Virus record (IMG/VR): IMGVR_UViG_3300032782_000017
Coordinates: 1-43,401 of that record
DNA length: 43,401 nucleotides
Source of the DNA: a virus
Reading direction: 5' to 3' (one strand)
Shown in pieces: positions 8,626 through 40,330 of the stretch. The position numbers and the translations under genes were made by a program. Under the pieces are notes generated by a model. It made no database searches. It saw only the letters and a program-made list of their open reading frames with translations, and was not told the origin of the DNA. Numbering within the stretch: position 1 is the stretch's first letter; each line of letters opens with the position of its first letter.

Positions 8626-8841
8626 TCAGTCCTTATCGCCCAACCACTGCGGATTCTGGCAGAGGTCGAAGCGGTGCTCGCTGCGCCAGTTGCCGCAGCA
8701 AACGCAGATGACGTCCTTCTCAAAATGCTCCACACGAAGCACTGTGTCTTCGGTCTCGGCGTCTGCCTCCCACGACGTGAGCGTCGGATCGGCGGGGTGT
8801 GCGGGAGTGGGCATTTCGGGCTCCTCTAGGTGGTCGAACAT
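8626..8841 (-). CDS. Hypothetical protein with CVCC motif, 71 aa
   Basis: Starts MFDHLEEPEMPTPAHPADPT. A C-terminal CVCCGNWRSEHRFDLC group probably binds a metal. The leader between its -10 box and ATG is about 39 bases and ends in a small hairpin (GCCGG/CCGGC) touching the start codon. Probably the first gene of a four-gene unit down to 7755. Confidence 0.65.
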   Translation of the reverse strand: MFDHLEEPEMPTPAHPADPTLTSWEADAETEDTVLRVEHFEKDVICVCCGNWRSEHRFDLCQNPQWLGDKD

Positions 8842-20231: not shown

Positions 20232-21083
20232 ATGGATTCGCTAATTGAGCGCCTACCCGCAGACAGTTTCGTCTCCAAGCAGATACCTCACTACGAAGAC
20301 ATTCGCGGTCTCCACGAGTGGTTCGACCGTCTCAGTTTCAACGCGGACCTCATCCTGTCCGGGGAGAAGGGCAACGGCAAAAGCCTCGCGTTGGCCGCGT
20401 ATTGCGCGCAAAAAAAGCTTCCCTCGGTAGTCTTTGATTGCTCGGAGGATGTGAGGCGCGCGCAGCTATTCGGGATGTTCGTACTCCGAGGGGATCGCAC
20501 GCCCTTCGTACTTGGGCCTCTTCCTACGGCGATCGAAGTGGCTAACGAGGTTGGGCAGTGCGTGCTCGTCCTGGAAGAGCTGAATTCGCTTTCTCCGGCC
20601 GCACAGAAGCTGGTCAACCCGCTTACCGACTTCCGCAAACGCATCGAACTCCCCGAGGCACAGCGGGTATTCCAGCTCAAGGAGAGCGCGAGGCTCTGGG
20701 TGTGCGCGACCATGAACGTCGCGTCCTACGCCGGAGTCCACGCGCTCAACGAGGATCTCAAGAGTCGGTTCCGGATCATCAGTGTTGGCTATCCTGACAC
20801 CAAGGCAGAGCAGAAGCTCGTCGCCTCGCTCCTCGAGAAAAAAGATCTTCGGATCGCCGAGACCGTTCTAAGGAAGGTCTTCACCCTTGCCAAGGAATCT
20901 CGACAGGAGCAGTTCGGCTACGCTCTGTCGACCCGCGACGTCGTGCAGGTGGCGGAAGACATTGCGAGACACGGTGTGGATCGTGGGCTGTGGTTGATGA
21001 GCGGGAAGTTCGACGAGGCGTTTCGCGCAACCGTCAAAAAGCGCGTCACGTCGATCTTTGGCCCCGTCACGGATCTCTGGTGA
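20232..21083 (+). CDS. MoxR-type AAA+ ATPase (CbbQ/NirQ/GvpN-like), 283 aa
   Basis: Walker A SGEKGNGKS (Lys at about 50), Walker B CVLVLEELN with Glu in place of the first Asp, sensor-1 Asn in CATMNVAS and an arginine finger in LKSRFRI. This is the MoxR branch of AAA+, whose members remodel protein complexes together with a VWA partner. The GTGA-overlapping VWA gene follows at once. A short in-frame-less ATG with a better ribosome binding site lies 14 bases upstream (eight codons). It may act on a replication or virion complex (inference). Confidence 0.85.
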   Translation: MDSLIERLPADSFVSKQIPHYEDIRGLHEWFDRLSFNADLILSGEKGNGKSLALAAYCAQKKLPSVVFDCSEDVRRAQLFGMFVLRGDRTPFVLGPLPTAIEVANEVGQCVLVLEELNSLSPAAQKLVNPLTDFRKRIELPEAQRVFQLKESARLWVCATMNVASYAGVHALNEDLKSRFRIISVGYPDTKAEQKLVASLLEKKDLRIAETVLRKVFTLAKESRQEQFGYALSTRDVVQVAEDIARHGVDRGLWLMSGKFDEAFRATVKKRVTSIFGPVTDLW

Positions 21084-22789
21084 CTCGCAGCCCTGACCTT
21101 GAGGCTGCCGAACAGACGGTGGCCTCTTTCGCCGGTCTCCTTGGAACCCCTTTGTTGCTGAAGGACGCCAAGGTCCCATGCAACCTCGACAATCAGCTCC
21201 ACGTCCCTTTCAAGGATAGTCGTCTCTACTGCCTTGTCGAGCGGCAGCTGGCACACTTCGTGTTTGGCTCGGACCCTGCCGCGCAAGATGCCTTTATCGA
21301 GCAGTTCATCTCGCGTACGGCGGATGTCACAGGTCGCACGAAGTACTCTGCGCGAGACCTATCGGAATTTCGCTCGAAGCTGCCGACAATCATAGGTATT
21401 CTCGAGACGCGCCGCGTGCTCAGCCTGTGGGAATTGCTCTACGAGGAAAGTGCCGACCAGATCCGACAGCTCCTCCGAGGCCACCTGCGAGTCGACGAGT
21501 CCTCTCTTATGGACGCGTTTGCAGCGCTATCCGTCGATAAGGATAGGGACTTGGCCGCCTTCGAACGGTTTGTGCCTCTCTTTCGCGAAGCCCTCCGTCG
21601 GGTCGAACGTCGTTCCTTTGCCGCTACGCTCGTTGTCGCCCGCTGGCTGATTTCGCAACTCGTACAACAGCTGCACCCCGCTGGAGCCTCAACCGAGGAG
21701 CGACTCACTGCACTGCTAGATCTCTCCATCCTTTTCGGGGAGCCCTTAACGCCCGTTCAGAAGGTGTTCGCCAACTACGGCGGGGAATCAGGGGACGCAA
21801 CGATCGGTGAGGAGGCCTTCGAGTTCGACACGCGCGATACGGATGCGCTCGAGGCTGCGCTCGCGGCGAGCGAGCGGCGCGCTCAGGACCTCCTGCGCGC
21901 AGCCCACGTGCCAACCGCCGCACCGCCCGAACCGCTCTCAGAGCCCACGACGTTCATTACGCGCACAGTCGACATTCACGTTGATGGGCCAAGCCTTCTT
22001 GCGTATGCAGCGGATCCGGCAGATACGCTAGCTGCCCGCCAAATCCAACAGGAGCTTCTAAGGTTAGGGCAGCGGAAGCGCGTCGCTCTAGATGAGGTTG
22101 GCGTAGAGCTTGACACGAGCGCTCTGCTCGAACGCCTGGTCGGAGGCAGTGCCGTGCCGTGCTTCCGGCAGGACGGTCGTACGCGCGAAGTTCACGCTGT
22201 TCTTCTCGTAGATCGCTCAACAAGCATGCTGTTCGATAATCGAGTTGTTGAGGCGGAACGGGCGGTTCGAGTGCTCGTTCGCGCGCTTCGAGTCCCTGGT
22301 GTGCGCTTTCAGGTCTGGGGATTCCAAGCCCCTGAGGATGGCGTGGTCGCCATCACGCGATTCCACTCGGCACGTCCCAGCCTTCACACGAAAACCTCTC
22401 CCGTCCTAGGCGGCACACCGCTTCACGTTGCGATCGATTTGGCCGTCGATGATCTCGAGCCTCTTTCGGGGTCTAGGTACATCTTTTGCGTAACGGACGG
22501 TGCGCCTGACTTTGCAGGTGTTGCAGGGTACAAACCTAGACCTCAGCTGCTTCGTAGCGCCGTTCGGGCCCGAATCGATAGGGCTGCGCGGGCAGGGATG
22601 GGATTCCTAAGCCTGATTCTGGGAAGCCCCTCTGAGACCGGATCCGTTGCGTATGAGGTTTCGGTCGACGAGGCGGACGAGATCTTCGGGGACCGATCGC
22701 GATACCGGTTTGTCCCGTGTTCGACGCTAATGCGATCTCTGGTCGAGGCCGTCGCGTCGAGCGTCCGCCAGCACGTACGATTGGGTTGA
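21080..22789 (+). CDS. CobT/MoxR-partner VWA protein, 569 aa
   Basis: GTG at 21080 overlaps the stop of the MoxR ATPase. The N-terminal 300 residues are largely helical without motifs; acidic and Ala-rich linkers follow. The C-terminal VWA domain has a complete MIDAS: DRSTS (Asp 378, Ser 380, Ser 382), Thr 446 in LGGTPLH and Asp 473 in CVTDGAPD. MoxR/VWA pairs act as metal-insertion or remodelling machines (for example CobS/CobT). Together with the left-end VWA protein the window holds two such proteins. Substrate unknown. Confidence 0.85.
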   Translation: MTRSPDLEAAEQTVASFAGLLGTPLLLKDAKVPCNLDNQLHVPFKDSRLYCLVERQLAHFVFGSDPAAQDAFIEQFISRTADVTGRTKYSARDLSEFRSKLPTIIGILETRRVLSLWELLYEESADQIRQLLRGHLRVDESSLMDAFAALSVDKDRDLAAFERFVPLFREALRRVERRSFAATLVVARWLISQLVQQLHPAGASTEERLTALLDLSILFGEPLTPVQKVFANYGGESGDATIGEEAFEFDTRDTDALEAALAASERRAQDLLRAAHVPTAAPPEPLSEPTTFITRTVDIHVDGPSLLAYAADPADTLAARQIQQELLRLGQRKRVALDEVGVELDTSALLERLVGGSAVPCFRQDGRTREVHAVLLVDRSTSMLFDNRVVEAERAVRVLVRALRVPGVRFQVWGFQAPEDGVVAITRFHSARPSLHTKTSPVLGGTPLHVAIDLAVDDLEPLSGSRYIFCVTDGAPDFAGVAGYKPRPQLLRSAVRARIDRAARAGMGFLSLILGSPSETGSVAYEVSVDEADEIFGDRSRYRFVPCSTLMRSLVEAVASSVRQHVRLG

Positions 22790-22852: not shown

Positions 22853-24304
22853 ATGAATGTAGGCGACACTTATAACCCTCGTGGTCTTTTCTACGGCGCG
22901 ATGACTCCGAACTGGTTGCTGCGGCGCTATGAGTTGACCGGTTGCGCTAAACTAGTCTTTGGACGGCTCTGTCAGTATTGCAACGAGGAAGGTCGTGCGT
23001 TTCCGTCGGTCGACGATTTGGCCGCAGAGGTCGGCTTCCATCCAAGCGCCGTGAAGGCCGCGGTGAAGGCTCTGACGGCCTTAGGGCTCATTAGGGTCGA
23101 GCAGCATCGAGGAGACCATCGCTCAAACGACTACTACTTCCTATGGCACGAGTGGATTGAGGCGGGCACCGCAACACCTCTTCGACCTGCAGGAGCTTCG
23201 TCGATGCCACCAATCGGGTGCCAAGTCGCAAAACAGGACGTGGAGGAGCGAAGTCGCAAAACAGGACGTGGCCACGTCGCAAAACAGGACGTGGCCACGT
23301 CGCAAAATAGGACCCCGCCACGTCCTATTTTGCGACCTCTTCTAAATAAGATCAGGGAAGTAAAATCAGAGGAAATCACATCAGGTGAAATCACATCAGC
23401 TGTCGGGCTCCCCCACGACGGCTCGAGAACCGGGCAGCGAACGGATGAGATTGAGAAAGATCTGGATCAACAAAATTTCCGTACGGACGAGCTAAAGCCG
23501 AACGCAGAGGAACCGTTTGAGGGGGATCGGCCCGGACCCGCAAGTGTCGATTCCGGCGCCGTGGAGGGGGCTAGGAGCGCTCCGCGCGACGCAGATGGGG
23601 GAGGATCGGTTTCGGATCGTGAAACGCATTCTGAGGGCAAATGGGGCGGCAGAGCTGAAGGTGGCTTCGACGAGGACGCTTTTCTCGCGCAGACACGTGA
23701 CGCATTGAAGGCTCGTGCGACCGAGCAGGTCCATAATCCCAAGCCGGAGAGCGCACCGCAAAGGCGAAGGTCGTACGACGAGGCTCCGTCGCGTTCACGG
23801 GCAGGCAAAGATTGGTCGAGGCCGAAGGGAGATCGAGCCGACTCCGTGTCGGCCAAACCGATTGCAGTTACTGCGGAGGTAAAAGAACTGGCCGACTTGT
23901 GGGCGAAGCTTATGACGGTTCATCGCGACCTTAGCGAGGCGACTGCCAGGCTAGGCGCTCAGGACCTGGCTCGACTGCAATCAGCGATTGCCGCGTATGG
24001 CGCCGATCGTGTAAAGATCGCCATTCACTACCTGATCGAAAACTGGGACGACATCGCAGTGCAGAAGAAGATCGTCGGTGGTGATCCGGGTCCGGTATTT
24101 CTGACGGGAGGTTGGGCGTCAGGGATGTTTGCGGACGCGGTGGCGTGGAAGCGCGATGGGGCGGTCTATGCGGCCTTCGAAGAGAAGCGCGAGGCCGAGG
24201 GAGTCAGATTTGCGCCCGCGCTCGAAGAGACAGAAAAGTACGAGTTGGCACGGAAACGGTTGAAACGGATGGGCCTTACGCATGTTTGGAAGTGGCAGCT
24301 CTAA
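22853..24304 (+). CDS. Replication initiator-like protein with N-terminal helix-turn-helix, 483 aa
   Basis: Residues 15-90 form a winged-helix domain: NWLLRRYELTGCAKLVFGRL, then SVDDLAAEVGFHPSAVKAAV and LGLIRVEQHRG, as in phage replication organisers. Residues 124-161 are encoded by a DNA iteron array, and the following stretch (LLNKIREVKSEEITSGEITS) by an AT-rich repeat. Residues 180-330 are charged, low-complexity linker. The C-terminal 130 residues look DnaD-like (ARLQSAIAAYGADRVKIAIH, DDIAVQKK), a region that in such proteins recruits the helicase loader. Same design as lambda O: HTH, origin inside the gene, partner-binding C-terminus. The stop shares an A with the loader ATG. Confidence 0.8.
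   Translation: MNVGDTYNPRGLFYGAMTPNWLLRRYELTGCAKLVFGRLCQYCNEEGRAFPSVDDLAAEVGFHPSAVKAAVKALTALGLIRVEQHRGDHRSNDYYFLWHEWIEAGTATPLRPAGASSMPPIGCQVAKQDVEERSRKTGRGHVAKQDVATSQNRTPPRPILRPLLNKIREVKSEEITSGEITSAVGLPHDGSRTGQRTDEIEKDLDQQNFRTDELKPNAEEPFEGDRPGPASVDSGAVEGARSAPRDADGGGSVSDRETHSEGKWGGRAEGGFDEDAFLAQTRDALKARATEQVHNPKPESAPQRRRSYDEAPSRSRAGKDWSRPKGDRADSVSAKPIAVTAEVKELADLWAKLMTVHRDLSEATARLGAQDLARLQSAIAAYGADRVKIAIHYLIENWDDIAVQKKIVGGDPGPVFLTGGWASGMFADAVAWKRDGAVYAAFEEKREAEGVRFAPALEETEKYELARKRLKRMGLTHVWKWQL
23225..23399 (+). other. Candidate replication origin: iterons plus AT-rich repeat tract
   Basis: Three exact copies of GTCGCAAAACAGGACGTGG (23225-23243, 23253-23271, 23276-23294), a fourth partial copy (23299-23313) and an inverted copy (23318-23336), spaced 28, 23 and 23 bases. 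Two GTGGCCAC palindromes link copies 2-3 and 3-4. An AT-rich stretch follows (23338-23399) with GAAATCACATCAG twice, 15 bases apart. The repeats fall in different reading frames of the initiator gene, so selection is on DNA, not protein. Confidence 0.8.
23478..23487. repeat. Dispersed palindrome, core only, intragenic
   Basis: TCCGTACGGA inside the linker-coding part of the initiator gene, about 80 bases after the AT-rich tract of the origin. Confidence 0.7.
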
Positions 24305-25083
24305 TGGCGGCTCTTTACTGCGCGGAGTGCAATCACCGATTCGATAGTGGACGCGCCCCTCCTTGTCCGAACTGCGGTGGGGATGACGCCCGCTATCGAA
24401 CCGAGAGCGAGCATCGTGTGCTCGAGGAGAGCGACTACAAACGGATGTGCTTGCCCCGAGGGTATTGGTCCGTACGGACGCGTCTCGTGCCCAAATCGAT
24501 TGCGCTGCAGGTGGCCAAGTACACCGTTCAGATCGATCGTGTAGTCAGAGGTGGGTACGGGTTGACGTTCACCGGCGGCCCCGGAGTGGGGAAAACGGCG
24601 GCCGCGGCGGTGATCGCGCGCGAAGCTACTAGTCACGGAAAGTACGCGTTCTTCACGACAGTCTCGGATCTTCGCGAATACATTCGCAATCGAATCGAAT
24701 TTGACAGAGATTCGACGGTCCTTGAGCGGGTGAAAGAAGTGCCCCTCCTGGTGCTCGACGCGCTTTGGAAAGAGCCTGAAGGGGATCACACGTTGAATCC
24801 GGCGATTCTTGCTTCGATCGTCGAGACACGCGTGCAGAACAAGCGCGCAACGATTGTGACGACGCGGATGAGCGCGGCCGCTCTCGCTGAGGCGCATCCA
24901 ACGCTCACCTCATTGCTTACCGGGGTGAACATTACGCTCGAGGTGACCGGACCGAATCAACGCGAGCGTCGCGGTCACCCAATAGAAACCGAAGAACCGG
25001 TGCACGCTGCGTCTGACGCACCTGCCCAGACAACGACAAAAGTAACCCCCAAAGCGTCCTTGTTTGCGTCTGACGACGAGTAG
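24304..25083 (+). CDS. Helicase loader, DnaC-like AAA+ with zinc ribbon, 259 aa
   Basis: N-terminal zinc ribbon CAEC...CPNC (residues 6-24). Walker A GGPGVGKT at 91-98. The Walker B strand PLLVLDALW keeps one Asp but has Ala where DnaC/IstB proteins have a second acidic residue. Sensor-1 region IVTTRM. The last 50 residues are polar and disordered. Immediate position between initiator and helicase genes supports a loader role, as for lambda P or DnaC. A dispersed palindrome lies in the coding region for residues 55-60. Confidence 0.8.
   Translation: MAALYCAECNHRFDSGRAPPCPNCGGDDARYRTESEHRVLEESDYKRMCLPRGYWSVRTRLVPKSIALQVAKYTVQIDRVVRGGYGLTFTGGPGVGKTAAAAVIAREATSHGKYAFFTTVSDLREYIRNRIEFDRDSTVLERVKEVPLLVLDALWKEPEGDHTLNPAILASIVETRVQNKRATIVTTRMSAAALAEAHPTLTSLLTGVNITLEVTGPNQRERRGHPIETEEPVHAASDAPAQTTTKVTPKASLFASDDE
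24467..24479. repeat. Dispersed palindrome, intragenic
   Basis: GGTCCGTACGGAC, encoding part of WSVRTR in the loader, 163 bases after its start. Confidence 0.75.
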
Positions 25084-25089
25084 GATCTC

Positions 25090-26427
25090 TTGGACTTAGA
25101 CAAACTTTTTGTATCGGCCCTTCTTCGAGAGGGACGTGAAGCCTTTGAGAAAGCGCGAGCCGCCGGGGCAAAGGATCGTTTGCGAGGCGAAGGCCTTCAG
25201 GCGTTTCAGTTTGTTAGCGGTTATGTGCGGGACTACGGGGAGATGCCCGTCCCGCATCAGATCGAAGGCAGGCTAGGCATCAGCCTGGAGGGGGAGGACA
25301 TCTTTCAGCTCGAGGATACGCCTCCCAAGGCGTTCGCGTGGTACCTCGGAGAGGTCACCAATCGCTATCTCGGGGAAACGATAAACACAGCCCTCGCGAG
25401 GGTCTCCGACCTCCAAGCGGATCCGAGACAGGCCGCGGAGCTTATTACGCGGTTGGCCGCCCAGCTCCAAGAGAGCGGAGGGCAGAGTCGAACTGAGAGC
25501 TTCTTCGCGGGTAACGAAGAGGTTTGGCAATACTACGAGCGCATCGAGGCGGGCGAGCGCGGCGTGCTTACGCCGTGGCCGAGCATGAACGAAGCCACGT
25601 TCGGCTTCTGGCCGGAAGACCTCGTGCTCTTTGCAGCTCGGTTGGGAACTGGAAAGACGTTTCTAATGATTCTGCTGGCTTTGCACGCCTGGCGGAATCC
25701 AGACCCGAAGACCGGCAAGCCGCACAAAGTACTGTTCATCACCACCGAGATCTCGCAGCTTCGAATCCGGCTGAGGTTTTTCTCGGTGTTTGCGAAGCTC
25801 CCCTACGGAGACCTCACGCACGGACGGCTCACCCACGAGGGCAAGCACAAGTTTCGCAAGTTCCTCGACGAGACGAAGTTCGCCGAGGGCATCGACATCA
25901 TCGGCGGCGACTTCGATTTCAGCATCGGCGCCGTAGCAGCGGCCATCGACGCCTCGAAGCCTGGCATCGTGATTCTCGATGGTGCCTATCTGCTCCAGGC
26001 GGACGGGAATACGCGAACCGAGCGCATGGCCAACGTGTTCAACGACGTCAAGCGGTTGGCGAAGACTAAGCACGTCCCTATCGTGATTACGACGCAGTTC
26101 AATCGCGAGGTAAAAAAGGACGTTAGCAAGTCCGTCCAGGTAGAGTCGATCGCGCTCTCCGATGTTGGAGGATGGAATGCCGATCTTATCTTCGGTATGA
26201 TTCAAACAGAGGAGATGAAGGTCGCCCGGCAGATGATCTTCAAACCACTCAAGGTGCGCGAGGGCGAGGGCAAGGAATTCATGTGTCAGTGGGACCTGTC
26301 GTTGATGGCATTCAACGAGCTGAGTACGGAAGGCGGTGGGGGCGGGGACGCAGATGAGCACGGCACGCCGTTGCACACGGTAACGGAGGACGAGGGGTCC
26401 AATACAGACGACGGGTTGCCGTTCTAA
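25090..26427 (+). CDS. Replicative DNA helicase, DnaB-like RecA fold, 445 aa
   Basis: TTG start with AGGA upstream. Residues 1-130 are the helical N-terminal domain that in DnaB contacts primase. The RecA-fold domain has Walker A RLGTGKTF at 184-191, Walker B GIVILDGAYLL and the DnaB-type TTQFNRE segment (sensor/H4 region). The C-terminus is Gly/Asp-rich and ends DDGLPF, like the tip of bacterial SSB. Unwinds DNA 5' to 3' ahead of the polymerase in related systems. Located directly after its presumed loader. Confidence 0.85.
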   Translation: MDLDKLFVSALLREGREAFEKARAAGAKDRLRGEGLQAFQFVSGYVRDYGEMPVPHQIEGRLGISLEGEDIFQLEDTPPKAFAWYLGEVTNRYLGETINTALARVSDLQADPRQAAELITRLAAQLQESGGQSRTESFFAGNEEVWQYYERIEAGERGVLTPWPSMNEATFGFWPEDLVLFAARLGTGKTFLMILLALHAWRNPDPKTGKPHKVLFITTEISQLRIRLRFFSVFAKLPYGDLTHGRLTHEGKHKFRKFLDETKFAEGIDIIGGDFDFSIGAVAAAIDASKPGIVILDGAYLLQADGNTRTERMANVFNDVKRLAKTKHVPIVITTQFNREVKKDVSKSVQVESIALSDVGGWNADLIFGMIQTEEMKVARQMIFKPLKVREGEGKEFMCQWDLSLMAFNELSTEGGGGGDADEHGTPLHTVTEDEGSNTDDGLPF

Positions 26428-26794: not shown

Positions 26795-27817
26795 ATGGAC
26801 GTAGCGGATATTCACCGCTTCTTAGAGCGGTTGGGATGCCAGCGAATCCGTGTGCGCTCCAATACGGTCGACGCGCAGTGCCCACTCCACTGGAAGCACT
26901 CAAAGGGCACGGATAACAAGCCGTCGTTCGGGGTGTCGATCAGACCCGGAAGTACCTCTCACTTCAACTGTTTCAGCTGCCACAGCCACGGAACACTTCT
27001 CGACCTCGTACGAGAAATCTCGGACCACAATGGGACGGATCTCAAGGAGCTGCACGACTGGCTCATTCTGAACAACGCTCCGAATCCGGCCGATAAGAGA
27101 CCGAAGCGGTTTGCGCCCAATTACGCACGTCCCAGTGAGGACGGAAAGCCGACGCCACTCCCACCGCTCCCCGTGGAGACTGAAGAGTATATCGAGGAGG
27201 AAGTCCTGAAGGGGTTTAGGGCGATCCCGCAGGAGGCGATGGAGTACTTGTTGAAGAAACGACGACTCACACGCAAAACGATCGAGGCGTGGGAGCTGGG
27301 TTGGCACGAAGGTTCGCGGAGGATCGTCATTCCAATTCGGGCGAGGAAAAAGGATGTACCGCTGGTAGGACTGACAGGGCGGAGCCTGGACGATGATGCG
27401 CGACCGCCTAAGTACCTTCACAGCAAGGGATTTAGGACTGCACTTCACCTGTACGGCGAGCACAAGGCACGGACTCACATGCCGGTGTTTCTCTGTGAGG
27501 GCTTTTTCGATGTCATGTACCTCTGGCAGTGCGGGTACAACGCCGTCGCGGTGTTCGGCTCGAATCTTTCGAAAGGGCAGTTGGAGTTGCTTCTTCAGCT
27601 CTGCCCGGCGAACTCCCCTCCAACAGCAGCGGTGTCAATCACAACGGACGGCGACGGACCCGGATACGAGGCGGCCAAACGATTCGAGCTGATCATCAAG
27701 ACGCGTGAGTCGCGGACACGGATTGTCCCGATGCCAGAGGGCAAAGATCCAGATCAACTTACGGACGAGGAACTAGAAACGCTCCTTGGTCCACCACAAT
27801 TCGAACGAACCGTTTGA
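26795..27817 (+). CDS. DNA primase, CHC2 zinc finger plus TOPRIM, 340 aa
   Basis: Residues 28-70 give the CHC2-type zinc finger (CPLHWKH then CFSCHSHGT). TOPRIM follows at about residues 228-300: FLCEGFFDVMYLWQCG with the catalytic Glu, and TDGDGPGYEAAKR with the DxD-type acidic pair. It makes RNA primers for lagging-strand synthesis. Shorter than bacterial DnaG and lacks a clear helicase-binding C-terminal domain. Two bases separate it from the gene upstream. Confidence 0.9.
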   Translation: MDVADIHRFLERLGCQRIRVRSNTVDAQCPLHWKHSKGTDNKPSFGVSIRPGSTSHFNCFSCHSHGTLLDLVREISDHNGTDLKELHDWLILNNAPNPADKRPKRFAPNYARPSEDGKPTPLPPLPVETEEYIEEEVLKGFRAIPQEAMEYLLKKRRLTRKTIEAWELGWHEGSRRIVIPIRARKKDVPLVGLTGRSLDDDARPPKYLHSKGFRTALHLYGEHKARTHMPVFLCEGFFDVMYLWQCGYNAVAVFGSNLSKGQLELLLQLCPANSPPTAAVSITTDGDGPGYEAAKRFELIIKTRESRTRIVPMPEGKDPDQLTDEELETLLGPPQFERTV

Positions 27818-28988: not shown

Positions 28989-29626
28989 TTGTAGGACTCT
29001 CTGGGTATGCTGGCGTGGGCAAGTCGGTAGCAGCGGACATGTTGAGTCGCGACTATGGATTTGTCGCCGTGTCGCTGGCAGATCCTATCAAGCGTGCCGC
29101 CGCAGACTGGTTTGGCTGGGACGAGGAGCGACTGTGGGGGCCGAGCGCAGCTCGCAACGAACCAGATCCGCGATTTCGCGGACTTTCGGCGCGGACGGCT
29201 CTCCAAAAAATGGGGTCCGATACTGCGCGCGCGCTCTACGAGGACGTATGGGTAGAATACGCACTCCGGGTTGCAGACTCGCTTTTTCAAAGCGGCATTC
29301 TACGGAGTGTCCACTACTCGTACACCGCGGCCGGAGGTCTGAGGGTCACGAATGTCCCCGAGGAACCAAGGCCGGTTGGCGTGGTGATCCCCGACGTCCG
29401 GTACAAAAACGAGCTGGCAGCGCTCCGCTCGCGCAAGAACGCGATGGTCATTAGGATCAAGCGTTCTATGAGCGGACTCACAGGCGAGGCTGCCGCTCAT
29501 CTATCGGAGCGCGAGCAGCAGGGGATCCCCGACTCCGCGTTCGACGCTGTTATCGATAACGATGGCAGTTTGGACGAATTCCTGACGAAGGTCGCCAAGG
29601 TGGTCAACGAGCGTCGCAACGTATGA
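28985..29626 (+). CDS. Deoxynucleoside monophosphate kinase, 213 aa
   Basis: P-loop GYAGVGKS at residues 7-14. Phage dNMP kinase features follow: DYGFVAVSLADPIKRAA, a helix TALQKMGSDTARALYEDVWV and the substrate-site strand VVIPDVRYKNELAALR. Phosphorylates dNMPs to dNDPs, supplying precursors for phage DNA (as T4 gp1). ATGA overlaps on both sides tie it to its neighbours. Confidence 0.85.
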   Translation: MIVGLSGYAGVGKSVAADMLSRDYGFVAVSLADPIKRAAADWFGWDEERLWGPSAARNEPDPRFRGLSARTALQKMGSDTARALYEDVWVEYALRVADSLFQSGILRSVHYSYTAAGGLRVTNVPEEPRPVGVVIPDVRYKNELAALRSRKNAMVIRIKRSMSGLTGEAAAHLSEREQQGIPDSAFDAVIDNDGSLDEFLTKVAKVVNERRNV

Positions 29627-32193
29627 AGGTGCGTGTGGACTCTATGGCGTGGCTGTCGAAAGCTGATCTCACGACGTCGGCGCTCCAGGCGCTAAGGCAG
29701 TCGTTGACGATCGTGCCAAAGAAGTTCGCTGAATACGAGGACGACGACGAGGATGGGCCGCTCTTTCTGTTTCGCGAGACAGAGACGGAGTTCGGGATGC
29801 CACGCGAGTATTTTCTGGCGAACAAGAAGCCACATCACGAAGTCGATCTCGAGACGACCGAGGGAAATCTCGCCGACTGGCCAGGAGCGTTGACCTTCAA
29901 CCCCGAGCGCAAGCTCAGACAGCAGCAGACTGAGGCCGTCGGTGCCGTGGTGACAGGCTTTCGAGCCGACAAACTCGGAGGGATCGTTAAAGCGTGCCCA
30001 GGCTTTGGAAAGTGCCTTCGCGGTGATTGTTGGACTGTCGACCAGCGTACAGGCGAGCGTCGAAGGCTTGACGAGCTGGTAGGGCAGATCCCGCTGGTAC
30101 CTTCGTTATCAGAAACCGGCTCTATTGTGGCGGCGGAGAGTAGTCGCGTCTGGTGTTCGGGATACAAGCCTTGCCTTCGGCTCACCCTCGCATCGGGTCA
30201 GAGCATTGTCGGCAGCGAGGATCATCCGGTATTAACGCAGCGAGGCTACGTGCGGCTAAGCGCGTTGGTCGCAAGTGATTTTGTAGGAACAGCACGACAG
30301 GTCCCCGCCCCCGAGCGTGTACTGGAGACGACCGATGCAGAAGCGGCGCTGGTCGGGGCTCTATTGGCCGATGGTCGGACAAAAGCCACGATTACTTACC
30401 ACAAGGGAGATCGTTCTCTGGTCGACCTTGTTATAAAATTGGCGAGCGAACTGCCAGAATTTGAAGGTGTCGGTGTCGACTACTTCGATCGCGGCTGTCA
30501 CACTGTCTCCCTTCTCGGCATCCATAACATCGCGAAGAAGTGGGGCATACGCGATCTGTCTAAGGACAAGAGGGTTCCGACCGCTTTTTTTGGACTATCC
30601 AACACGCAGCTAGGAATGTTCTTGCGCTGGCTGTACACGGACGCGCATGTGGCAGCAAGGGCTCGTGGTCCGGCTTTAATCGAGCTGACACTCGCGAGTG
30701 AGGGGCTGATCGATGATGTGCAGTACCTGCTCAAGCGTTTCGGCATTCGCAGCGCAAAGTACTACAAGCGCGCCACAATCAGAGGGGTAGACGGGACTGC
30801 CGAGTGTTATGACGCTTGGCGCCTAACGGTGTCCGGTCGCCAGGACCTCGAGCTATTCATGACGCACATCGGGCCGATTCCGGGGAAGATCGCCGCCTGT
30901 GCGGCCCTAGCAGCGAAGGTAGCAGCCACAAAAGCCAACACGAGCTACGACGTGGCTCCAGTAGATTGCGAGAGTATTGCGGAGTTAAACAAATGCTCCG
31001 TAAAATCGTCGTGGAAGAGGTTATTGTCCTCCCACGGAATAGGGCGTGAACGATTTAAACGAGTAGCCGCCAAGGTTGGATACCAGGGTCCCATCCTGGA
31101 TCTCGTTAACGCCGATCTGGTTTGGGAGCGAATTCGCTCGATCACCGAGGAAGGGACGTTTCCGGTGTATGATCTGACAGTGCCGGCTACGCACAATGCG
31201 ATTGTCGGCGGCATCGTCGTTCATAATACGGTTATCGGCTGCGCAGTGGCCGCCGAGATGGGCGTTCCAACACTGGTTGTGGTGCACAAGACCTTCCTGC
31301 TCAACCAGTGGAAAGAACGCATCGAGGAGTACCTTCCGGGGGCAAAAGTAGGCATTGCCCGACAGAAGCGTTGCGACTTTCGTGGAAAACACGTCGTGAT
31401 CGGGATGATCCATTCGCTCGTGCGCGACAAGTATCCGAAAGAGTTCTACGAACACTTCGGACTGGTCATCACTGACGAGGTCCACCGACTTGGCGCGCGC
31501 ACCTTCAGCCTCATGCCCGAACGGTTTCGCGCTCGGTGGCGCCTGGCCCTCTCCGCGACCCCGCGGCGTAAGGACGGGTGTGAAAATGTCTTCTACTACC
31601 ACGAAGGTCCGATTGTGTACGAGGCCACCGAGCGTCGTTTGAAGCCGCTCATCAAGCGCGTCTACAGCAGTTTCCGTTTGGTTCAGACACCCAGCTTCAA
31701 CCCCAAGCTGGCCCCGGAGAGCCTCGTGCTCTCGTTTCTATGTGCGAACGAGCCGAGAAATCGCAAAATTGTAGAGCTTGCGATTGAGGCGCTTCACACG
31801 GGCCGGAAGCTCCTGATACTGAGCAAACGTATCAACCACCTGAACAGACTCGATGCGATGCTCCGGCAGGAATGGGAGAGCCGCAAGCTCGGCCCTCCAC
31901 CGTCGATCGACTACTACATCGGAGGACGTTCCGAGGAGGCTCTCTATAAGGCCTCGTTTGCACGTGTGATTTTCGCCACGAGCCAGTTCGCCTCCGAGGG
32001 GCTCGACGTGCCCGCGCTTGACACGCTCTTTCTGGTCATCCCGATGAGCGACGTCGAGCAAGCAGTCGGGCGGATCTGTCGCGAGTTCGAGGGAAAGCGT
32101 ACGCCCATCGTGGTGGATGTGCGTGATGACATGGTCGGACGTTTCAAGGGCTACGGCGCTAACCGTGATCGCCTATACGAGCGTATCTCTTGA
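29623..32193 (+). CDS. SF2 DNA helicase (XPB/UvsW-like) interrupted by an intein, 856-aa precursor
   Basis: The extein is 451 aa after splicing. N-terminal part (residues 1-130) ends in the P-loop ACPGFGK; the intein (131-535) follows, and the C-terminal extein resumes with TVIGCAV, restoring GKT. Further motifs: VVVHKTFL (Ia), ITDEVHRL (DEVH box, II), LALSATPRR (III), VIFATSQFASEG (V) and QAVGRICR (VI). Related SF2 enzymes unwind or anneal DNA in repair and recombination. ATG overlaps the kinase stop as ATGA. Confidence 0.92.
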   Translation: MKVRVDSMAWLSKADLTTSALQALRQSLTIVPKKFAEYEDDDEDGPLFLFRETETEFGMPREYFLANKKPHHEVDLETTEGNLADWPGALTFNPERKLRQQQTEAVGAVVTGFRADKLGGIVKACPGFGKCLRGDCWTVDQRTGERRRLDELVGQIPLVPSLSETGSIVAAESSRVWCSGYKPCLRLTLASGQSIVGSEDHPVLTQRGYVRLSALVASDFVGTARQVPAPERVLETTDAEAALVGALLADGRTKATITYHKGDRSLVDLVIKLASELPEFEGVGVDYFDRGCHTVSLLGIHNIAKKWGIRDLSKDKRVPTAFFGLSNTQLGMFLRWLYTDAHVAARARGPALIELTLASEGLIDDVQYLLKRFGIRSAKYYKRATIRGVDGTAECYDAWRLTVSGRQDLELFMTHIGPIPGKIAACAALAAKVAATKANTSYDVAPVDCESIAELNKCSVKSSWKRLLSSHGIGRERFKRVAAKVGYQGPILDLVNADLVWERIRSITEEGTFPVYDLTVPATHNAIVGGIVVHNTVIGCAVAAEMGVPTLVVVHKTFLLNQWKERIEEYLPGAKVGIARQKRCDFRGKHVVIGMIHSLVRDKYPKEFYEHFGLVITDEVHRLGARTFSLMPERFRARWRLALSATPRRKDGCENVFYYHEGPIVYEATERRLKPLIKRVYSSFRLVQTPSFNPKLAPESLVLSFLCANEPRNRKIVELAIEALHTGRKLLILSKRINHLNRLDAMLRQEWESRKLGPPPSIDYYIGGRSEEALYKASFARVIFATSQFASEGLDVPALDTLFLVIPMSDVEQAVGRICREFEGKRTPIVVDVRDDMVGRFKGYGANRDRLYERIS
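30013..31227 (+). mobile_element. Intein with LAGLIDADG homing endonuclease, 405 aa, in helicase P-loop
   Basis: Starts with Cys1 (CLRGDCWTVD), ends VVHN with Thr as the +1 residue. Block B has GSEDHPVL with the His needed for splicing. Two LAGLIDADG-like helices: LVGALLADG (about residues 243-251) and FLRWLYTDA (333-341). Blocks F and G read VYDLTVPATHNAIVGG and IVVHN. Insertion between Lys and Thr of GKT is the classic site in P-loop ATPases, where the target is conserved. Splicing residues all appear intact. Confidence 0.92.
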
Positions 32194-39224: not shown

Positions 39225-39440
39225 ATGATCTCGAAAGCGGTTCTGACGGAAGAACTGAGTATGGCGCAGCGCGTGCTCACCAAGTGGCTCCAGAAGATTC
39301 AGGAGGGCATTCCAGGTTCGGACCTCCCAGCCACGGAGTACGATCAGGCGGCCTGGATCGGGGAGCTGATCGGGGAGTCCCTGCTCATGTCGGCCAAGCT
39401 CCAGGCGCTCGCTGAAGTCCTCGAACGCGACAACGGCTGA
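39225..39440 (+). CDS. Hypothetical helical protein, 71 aa
   Basis: Starts MISKAVLTEELSMAQRVLTK; predicted all-helical. Its stop overlaps the ParB-like start (TGATG), which suggests that both are translated together. No family recognised. Confidence 0.6.
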   Translation: MISKAVLTEELSMAQRVLTKWLQKIQEGIPGSDLPATEYDQAAWIGELIGESLLMSAKLQALAEVLERDNG

Positions 39441-40330
39441 TGGGCAAGAAGAAGACAAGCGCGCCGCCCGCGGAGGCGGCTCCGATCGAGCCGAAGCCTG
39501 CAGGCCGCGCGATCGATCTTCAGTGGATTCCCATCGACTTGGTGATCCCTAACGACTGGAATCCCAACGAAGAGGACGACATAGCGTTCAACCTTCTTCA
39601 GGACGAGATCAACCAGGTCGGCATGATCTCGCCAATTCAAGTGGTTCCGCTCGATGACGGACGTTACCTGATCATCGGCGGTGAGCATCGCTGGAGGGCC
39701 TGCAAGAACTTAGGCCACGAAGAGATTCCGTGCGCGCTCCTTACCGACTCGAAGTGGCAGGAAACCGATCTCGAAAAGTTCGCGACTGTCCGGCTAAACG
39801 TGATGCACGGGAAACTCAATCCCGAGAAGTTCATGAAGCTGTACAAGGAGATGGCCGCCAAGTACGGCGAAGAGTCCATGCAGCGCATGATGGGCTATTC
39901 GGATCCAAAAGGCTTCCAGCGGATGTTGGGCTGGGTGAAGAAGGGTCTCAAGCAGTCCCTGCCGGCCGACATGGCTGCCGATGTCGACGACGCCACAAAA
40001 GACGTCCGATCAGTTGCAGAGCTTCAAGCGGTCATTCAGGAGATGTTCGCCCAGCACGGGGACACGCTCGAATATTCCTTCATGGTCTTCAATTTTGGCA
40101 AGAATCGGCATGTCTACATCAAGTGCAACGCGAAGATGCGCCGAGGCCTGGAAAAGGCCATGGAGTGCTGCAAACAGTTGAAGGTCGACATCAACGACTT
40201 CATGGAGCCGGTCTGCGCGGAGTTTATCCGCAAAGCGGCGATCGACATCGAACGAAAACATCAAGAGGATGCGATTTCGGGCGGTAGCGGGTCAAGCGGG
40301 ACCGTTGATCCGAAAGATCCAAAGTGGTAG
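39440..40330 (+). CDS. ParB-like nuclease-domain protein, 296 aa
   Basis: The ParB/Srx core is clear: IDLQWIPIDLVIPNDWNPNE, LQDEINQVGMISPIQVVPLD and the GEHRWRACKNLG signature (the ParB CTP-binding box region). Residues 130-160 could hold a helix-turn-helix (EESMQRMMGYSDPKGFQRML). The C-terminal 100 residues are unlike bacterial ParB. Phage ParB-like proteins act in DNA binding, partition or as nucleases. No ParA is visible. One candidate binder of the dispersed palindrome. Confidence 0.85.
   Translation: MGKKKTSAPPAEAAPIEPKPAGRAIDLQWIPIDLVIPNDWNPNEEDDIAFNLLQDEINQVGMISPIQVVPLDDGRYLIIGGEHRWRACKNLGHEEIPCALLTDSKWQETDLEKFATVRLNVMHGKLNPEKFMKLYKEMAAKYGEESMQRMMGYSDPKGFQRMLGWVKKGLKQSLPADMAADVDDATKDVRSVAELQAVIQEMFAQHGDTLEYSFMVFNFGKNRHVYIKCNAKMRRGLEKAMECCKQLKVDINDFMEPVCAEFIRKAAIDIERKHQEDAISGGSGSSGTVDPKDPKW

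Follow-up and report, generated by a model that had tools for sequence, protein, structure and literature searches.

A probable replication origin carried within the initiator gene of a phage contig

The 43,401-bp virus contig analysed here (hereafter the window) carries, within the coding sequence of its replication initiator gene, an array of repeats followed by a weak duplex. An earlier note, made from the sequence alone, had proposed a lambda-like replication origin inside the initiator gene. Our results indicate that positions 23225-23399 are very probably this phage's replication origin, carried in its own initiator gene.

Iterons and a weak duplex inside the initiator gene

A 15-bp core, GTCGCAAAAYAGGAC, occurs five times within 23225-23336, at 370-480 bp into the initiator gene, and a scan of the whole record returned matches in this interval only; the reversed-pattern control returned none. 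Four copies lie on the plus strand (23225-23239, GTCGCAAAACAGGAC; 23253-23267; 23276-23290; and 23299-23313, GTCGCAAAATAGGAC), while the fifth (23322-23336) is inverted on the minus strand, which agrees with the earlier description of four direct iterons and an inverted one. The spacing of 23-28 bp given in the earlier note is likewise correct, the iteron centres being separated by 28, 23, 23, and 23 bp. The direct iterons occupy frames 0, 1, 0, and 2, encoding VAKQD, SRKTG, VAKQD, and SQNRT, respectively, and the inverted copy reads RPILRP. As the direct copies fall in differing frames and the fifth is inverted, protein conservation cannot account for them. In 200 synonymous-codon shuffles of the initiator gene, the largest repeat family within 150 bp comprised two members, compared to the five observed, no shuffle (0/200) exceeding two. 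With all three frames occupied and shuffles limited to two copies, the earlier assertion that conservation acts at the level of DNA is supported.

The iteron has dyad symmetry centred on an A-tract, which the first reading had not remarked upon. The symmetry is fullest in copy 3 with its flanks (CCACGTC-GCAAAACAG-GACGTGG), where the arms extend to 7 bp; inner GTC...GAC arms are present in 5/5 copies, while the outer arms are imperfect in copies other than the third. Dyads in the array exceed those of control windows (fraction 0.013). Iterons 4 and 5 have a C-to-T variant in common and together make up an inverted repeat with perfect 15-bp arms and an 8-nt spacer or loop, for which an RNA hairpin of -23.2 kcal/mol is predicted.

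The base directly after the last iteron, 23337, is where the least stable 40-bp and 60-bp duplexes of all 43,401 bp begin in a nearest-neighbour stability scan, and the least stable 80- and 100-mers of the record overlap the same tract. The segment 23337-23399 is thus a predicted DNA-unwinding element. Equally low stability arose at the same place in 36/2000 synonymous shuffles, such that encoded residues and codon choice both contribute to it. The AT-rich tract reported earlier is real, and constitutes the weakest 40- and 60-mer of the record, but at approximately 62% A+T it is AT-rich only relative to a 59% G+C background. The tandem 13-mer noted within it (GAAATCACATCAG, 23372-23384 and 23387-23399) is also present, but its period of 15 preserves the reading frame (EITSG EITSA), which makes it weak evidence for an origin. 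We accordingly dropped it as DNA-level evidence; it may be a repeat of the unwinding element or merely a peptide repeat.

Strand skew was similarly set aside. Purine and AT skews turn at 22973-23037, with minima near 23.0 kb, but fourfold-site skews shift only weakly and without persistence; GC skew has its minimum at 8773 and does not clearly mark the site.

The initiator and its neighbouring genes

The initiator gene (22853-24304, plus strand) encodes 483 residues comprising an HTH_36 domain, a linker, and a helical C-terminal region. In a Pfam scan the protein matched PF13730 (HTH_36) at 36.5 bits against a curated cut-off of 25, and returned no match to PF04492 (Phage_rep_O) or PF06970 (RepA_N). 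It further matches the replication initiation families PHROG_270, PHROG_391, and PHROG_1032, and profile searches indicate weak MarR/GntR similarity. The AlphaFold model of the whole protein was poor (pLDDT 43), and the N-terminal domain alone was therefore used. Residues from about 19 to 98 are predicted to form a winged helix, with pLDDT values mostly in the 80s, and the linker falls below 50. Residues from about 125 to 183, encoded by the iterons and melting tract, are modelled with very low confidence, and the array is thus predicted to be encoded in a disordered linker. Beyond the linker, the C-terminal region is predicted, with low confidence, to be helical. Structurally, the N-terminal model best matched the N-terminal domain of B. 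subtilis DnaD, a replication initiation protein, at a weak E-value of 2.3e-3; MarR-type regulators, also with weak E-values, were among the best remaining matches. Close relatives of the initiator were absent from the phage records and IMG/VR data searched, and the repeats are consequently not traceable through recent divergence.

The initiator stop codon overlaps the ATG of the following gene (TAATG), which profile matches assign to a DnaC/IstB-type helicase loader (24304-25083). A DnaB-like replicative helicase (25090-26427; PF03796, 1.4e-18; PHROG_19, 2e-46) and a DnaG-like primase with a Toprim domain (26795-27817; profile matches) follow, all on the plus strand. The loader and helicase genes which the HTH_36-initiator pattern places downstream are thus present, and Pfam and PHROG matches confirm the succession of helix-turn-helix initiator, loader, helicase, and primase given in the earlier note.

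Several further features of the record were noted. Directly upstream of the initiator, 20232-22789 encodes a CobS-like AAA+ ATPase (PHROG_249) and a VWA-domain protein in a CobT-like position. ATPase genes are similarly placed in phage RcZahn and the RHph phages, and Gordonia phage ChisanaKitsune features a CobS/CobT pair near its helicase. An 856-aa ORF at 29623-32193 encodes a SNF2/ResIII-type helicase with intein-splicing and LAGLIDADG endonuclease domains, and seven tRNA genes, six of them on the minus strand, are found between 3001 and 11408. A ParB-like nuclease ORF (39440-40330) matches PHROG_26387 at 4e-58, and related genes occur in Stenotrophomonas phages DLP3 and DLP5. Of the ORFs scanned across 1-43401, none was recognised as a structural or packaging gene, and the contig may represent only part of a larger phage genome, roughly 100 kb in size.

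Related phages and known in-gene origins

Helicase similarity leads to siphophages of ~94-102 kb (RcZahn, RHph_TM16, DLP3/5, and PA_L9) with a gene order parallel to that of the window. Their helicases are only 24-28% identical to the window's, tblastn detected no similarity between their sequences and the initiator, and an IMG/VR search returned no close helicase relatives. The clearest likeness is to RcZahn, in which a CobS-like ATPase, HTH initiator, loader-position gene, DnaB, primase, helicase, RecA, Holliday resolvase, and Cas4-like exonuclease follow the same order. Most of these siphophages resemble the window in combining in-gene repeats with a weak duplex, but their iteron sequences differ. 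In RcZahn gp51, three copies of CGGTGCAGATATGCACCA recur every 23 bp, with a purine-rich tandem 12-mer after them; DLP5, DLP3, and PSS2 carry arrays at 22-23 bp in three frames; and PA_L9 has two in-gene copies at a spacing of 22 bp. In-gene repeats also occur in Margaery, RcSwan, and KellEzio, which are HTH_36 phages, with sequences unrelated to those of the window. The repeat scan missed DelaGarza, where three dyads nonetheless lie in a row, and gave no clear array in RHph_TM16 or RHph_Y1_11 at the settings used. The earlier note had held that relatives with an intact gene and no repeats would count against an origin; RHph_TM16 weakly fits this description, although its least stable segment still lies within the initiator gene.

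Arrays of at least three copies in at least two frames were found in 7/12 initiators and in 0/118 other ORFs of at least 200 aa from the same loci (Fisher p 7e-9, an optimistic value given that DLP3 and DLP5 are close kin and the relatives are not independent). In 10 of 13 cases, lambda O included, the initiator gene itself contains, 360-550 bp into its sequence, the least stable 40-mer of the locus, a rank more easily reached in the shorter of these loci, which span 1.8-43 kb. In DLP3 and DLP5 the in-gene 40-mer ranks second in its locus, and DelaGarza is the exception. Upstream of the tract, the window, lambda, RcZahn, Margaery, and DelaGarza have a clear excess of dyads, which elsewhere did not reach significance. 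A survey for HTH_36 in 114 genomes of one bacterial class and five single genomes gave few matches, two of which (L068 and L072) contain in-gene repeats in different frames; the others have in-frame repeats only or none. Scans of viral and genome collections for the paired-iteron pattern returned one viral locus (L003) and 41 genome loci, none of them in a recognisable HTH initiator, overlapping ORFs having been judged by eye in the genome loci.

The in-gene plan is itself known from lambda, where O dimers bind to inverted-repeat iterons and a neighbouring A+T-rich region of 40 bp opens as they do so (PMC5043065, PMC7466680). The window resembles lambda in placing A-tract dyads mid initiator gene, those of lambda being 20, 24, and 23 bp apart; in the weak duplex after the array, where the fetched lambda locus has its least stable 40-mer; and in the loader gene next after the initiator. 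A 9-mer, CAAAACAGG, common to the window iterons and lambda iteron 4 is suggestive only. Unlike lambda, the window has five copies, one of them inverted, and its phage encodes its own helicase and primase. The window initiator belongs to HTH_36 (PF13730) while lambda O matches PF04492, the PHROGs common to both being broad O-like ones only, and the loader is a DnaC/IstB-type AAA+ protein rather than P. As tests for the Phage_rep_O domain and for a P-type loader both returned negative results, the window origin falls outside the lambda O/P family. The earlier description as lambda-like thus stands for architecture (multi-frame array, dyads, spacing, weak duplex, gene order, and relatives), from which a function like that of orilambda is predicted, but not for the ancestry of the parts.

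A second likeness is to plasmids of the RepA_N type, in which origins of the pSK41 type are situated where rep encodes the linker (PMC5703833). As in pSK41, pTZ2162, and the chimeric pPR9, the window pairs a DnaD-related winged-helix N-terminal domain with putative binding boxes in linker-coding DNA, and RepA_N iterons are similarly described as inverted repeats converging on an A-tract, a likeness of arrangement (PMC5703833, PMC7145576). The pPR9 Rep carries an N-terminal domain of PF13730, the family of the window initiator, and its rep region replicates autonomously (PMC5703833); an HTH_36 domain operating with an in-gene origin thus has a precedent in experiment. Unlike these plasmids, the window shows no RepA_N match, and its phage has a replisome operon where the plasmid relies on its host.

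An origin reading and its alternatives

Repeats, symmetry, spacing, weak duplex, gene order, and the anatomy of relatives are the observations from which we infer binding, melting, helicase loading, and an actual start of replication at this site. In the mechanism we propose, the winged-helix domain of the initiator would bind the five dyad iterons, centred on A-tracts and mostly 23 bp apart, probably as dimers. The bound protein would bend the DNA into a nucleoprotein complex, the strain of which may melt the adjoining weak duplex at 23337-23399. The DnaC/IstB-type loader could then place the phage's DnaB-type helicase onto the melted DNA, after which the DnaG-like primase would begin synthesis. 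An in-gene origin at 23225-23399 together with this mechanism is, to our minds, the best explanation of the data as a whole, with a probability of roughly 0.88.

Assigning confidence to this reading requires that others be weighed. A winged-helix protein with weak MarR/GntR similarity, and dyad repeats of typical operator form, might also suggest an operator array through which this or another regulator controls transcription of the early operon, the origin lying elsewhere. The array is, however, sited well inside the gene, not at its start; a regulator alone would leave the record's weakest duplex alongside unexplained; and the pairing of array and weak duplex recurs in other phage initiators. 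We thus consider an operator unlikely. Replication slippage in a tolerant linker, a neutral source of tandem copies with no function for the DNA, might account for iterons 2 and 3, which are identical, spacer included (GTCGCAAAACAGGACGTGGCCAC), as recent slippage would leave them, and the predicted disorder of the linker would favour such tolerance. The cores are nevertheless conserved at 14-15 of 15 positions while the remaining spacers vary both in their sequence and in their length (28 vs 23), the fifth copy is inverted, and none of the 118 other ORFs in phage loci bears a frame-shifted array, which renders slippage very unlikely.

We give still less credence, indeed next to none, to a partition (centromere) or incompatibility site. 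The ParB-like ORF encoded by this phage, and the persistence of its relative DLP5 as a phagemid (PMC5834331), might invite this explanation, but the gene is 16 kb distant and matches nuclease-type ParB families, while the repeats reside in an initiator gene and adjoin an unwinding-type tract.

The pattern across phages with unrelated repeats makes the finding in this phage more useful. For this phage, with an initiator lacking any close relative in the searched collections, the analysis offers a precise candidate origin. A limited literature search found no described origins for these ~100-kb siphophages, and the pattern supplies candidates for the group, including a temperate phage which forms phagemids. 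It also suggests a simple screen for origins, namely frame-shifted repeats in the initiator gene (7/12 initiators, 0/118 other ORFs) with the weakest duplex of the locus alongside. Tentatively, and at somewhat less than even odds, the DNA-binding domain and its in-gene iteron and melting segment may form one exchangeable cassette across phages, each initiator carrying its own target in linker-coding DNA. New specificities would then arise by swap or co-evolution of a ~500-bp piece, with loader, helicase, and primase kept. Iteron sequence would change under this reading, whereas the weak duplex and a spacing of about 22-23 bp would persist.

In-frame tandems were also observed in the melting tracts of several of these phages. 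Two units with a 15-bp period occur in the window, a 15-bp period is found in RcSwan, and the tract of RcZahn (L052:6818-6853) comprises three copies of a purine-rich 12-mer. A tandem recurring in these three phages may be functional in its own right.
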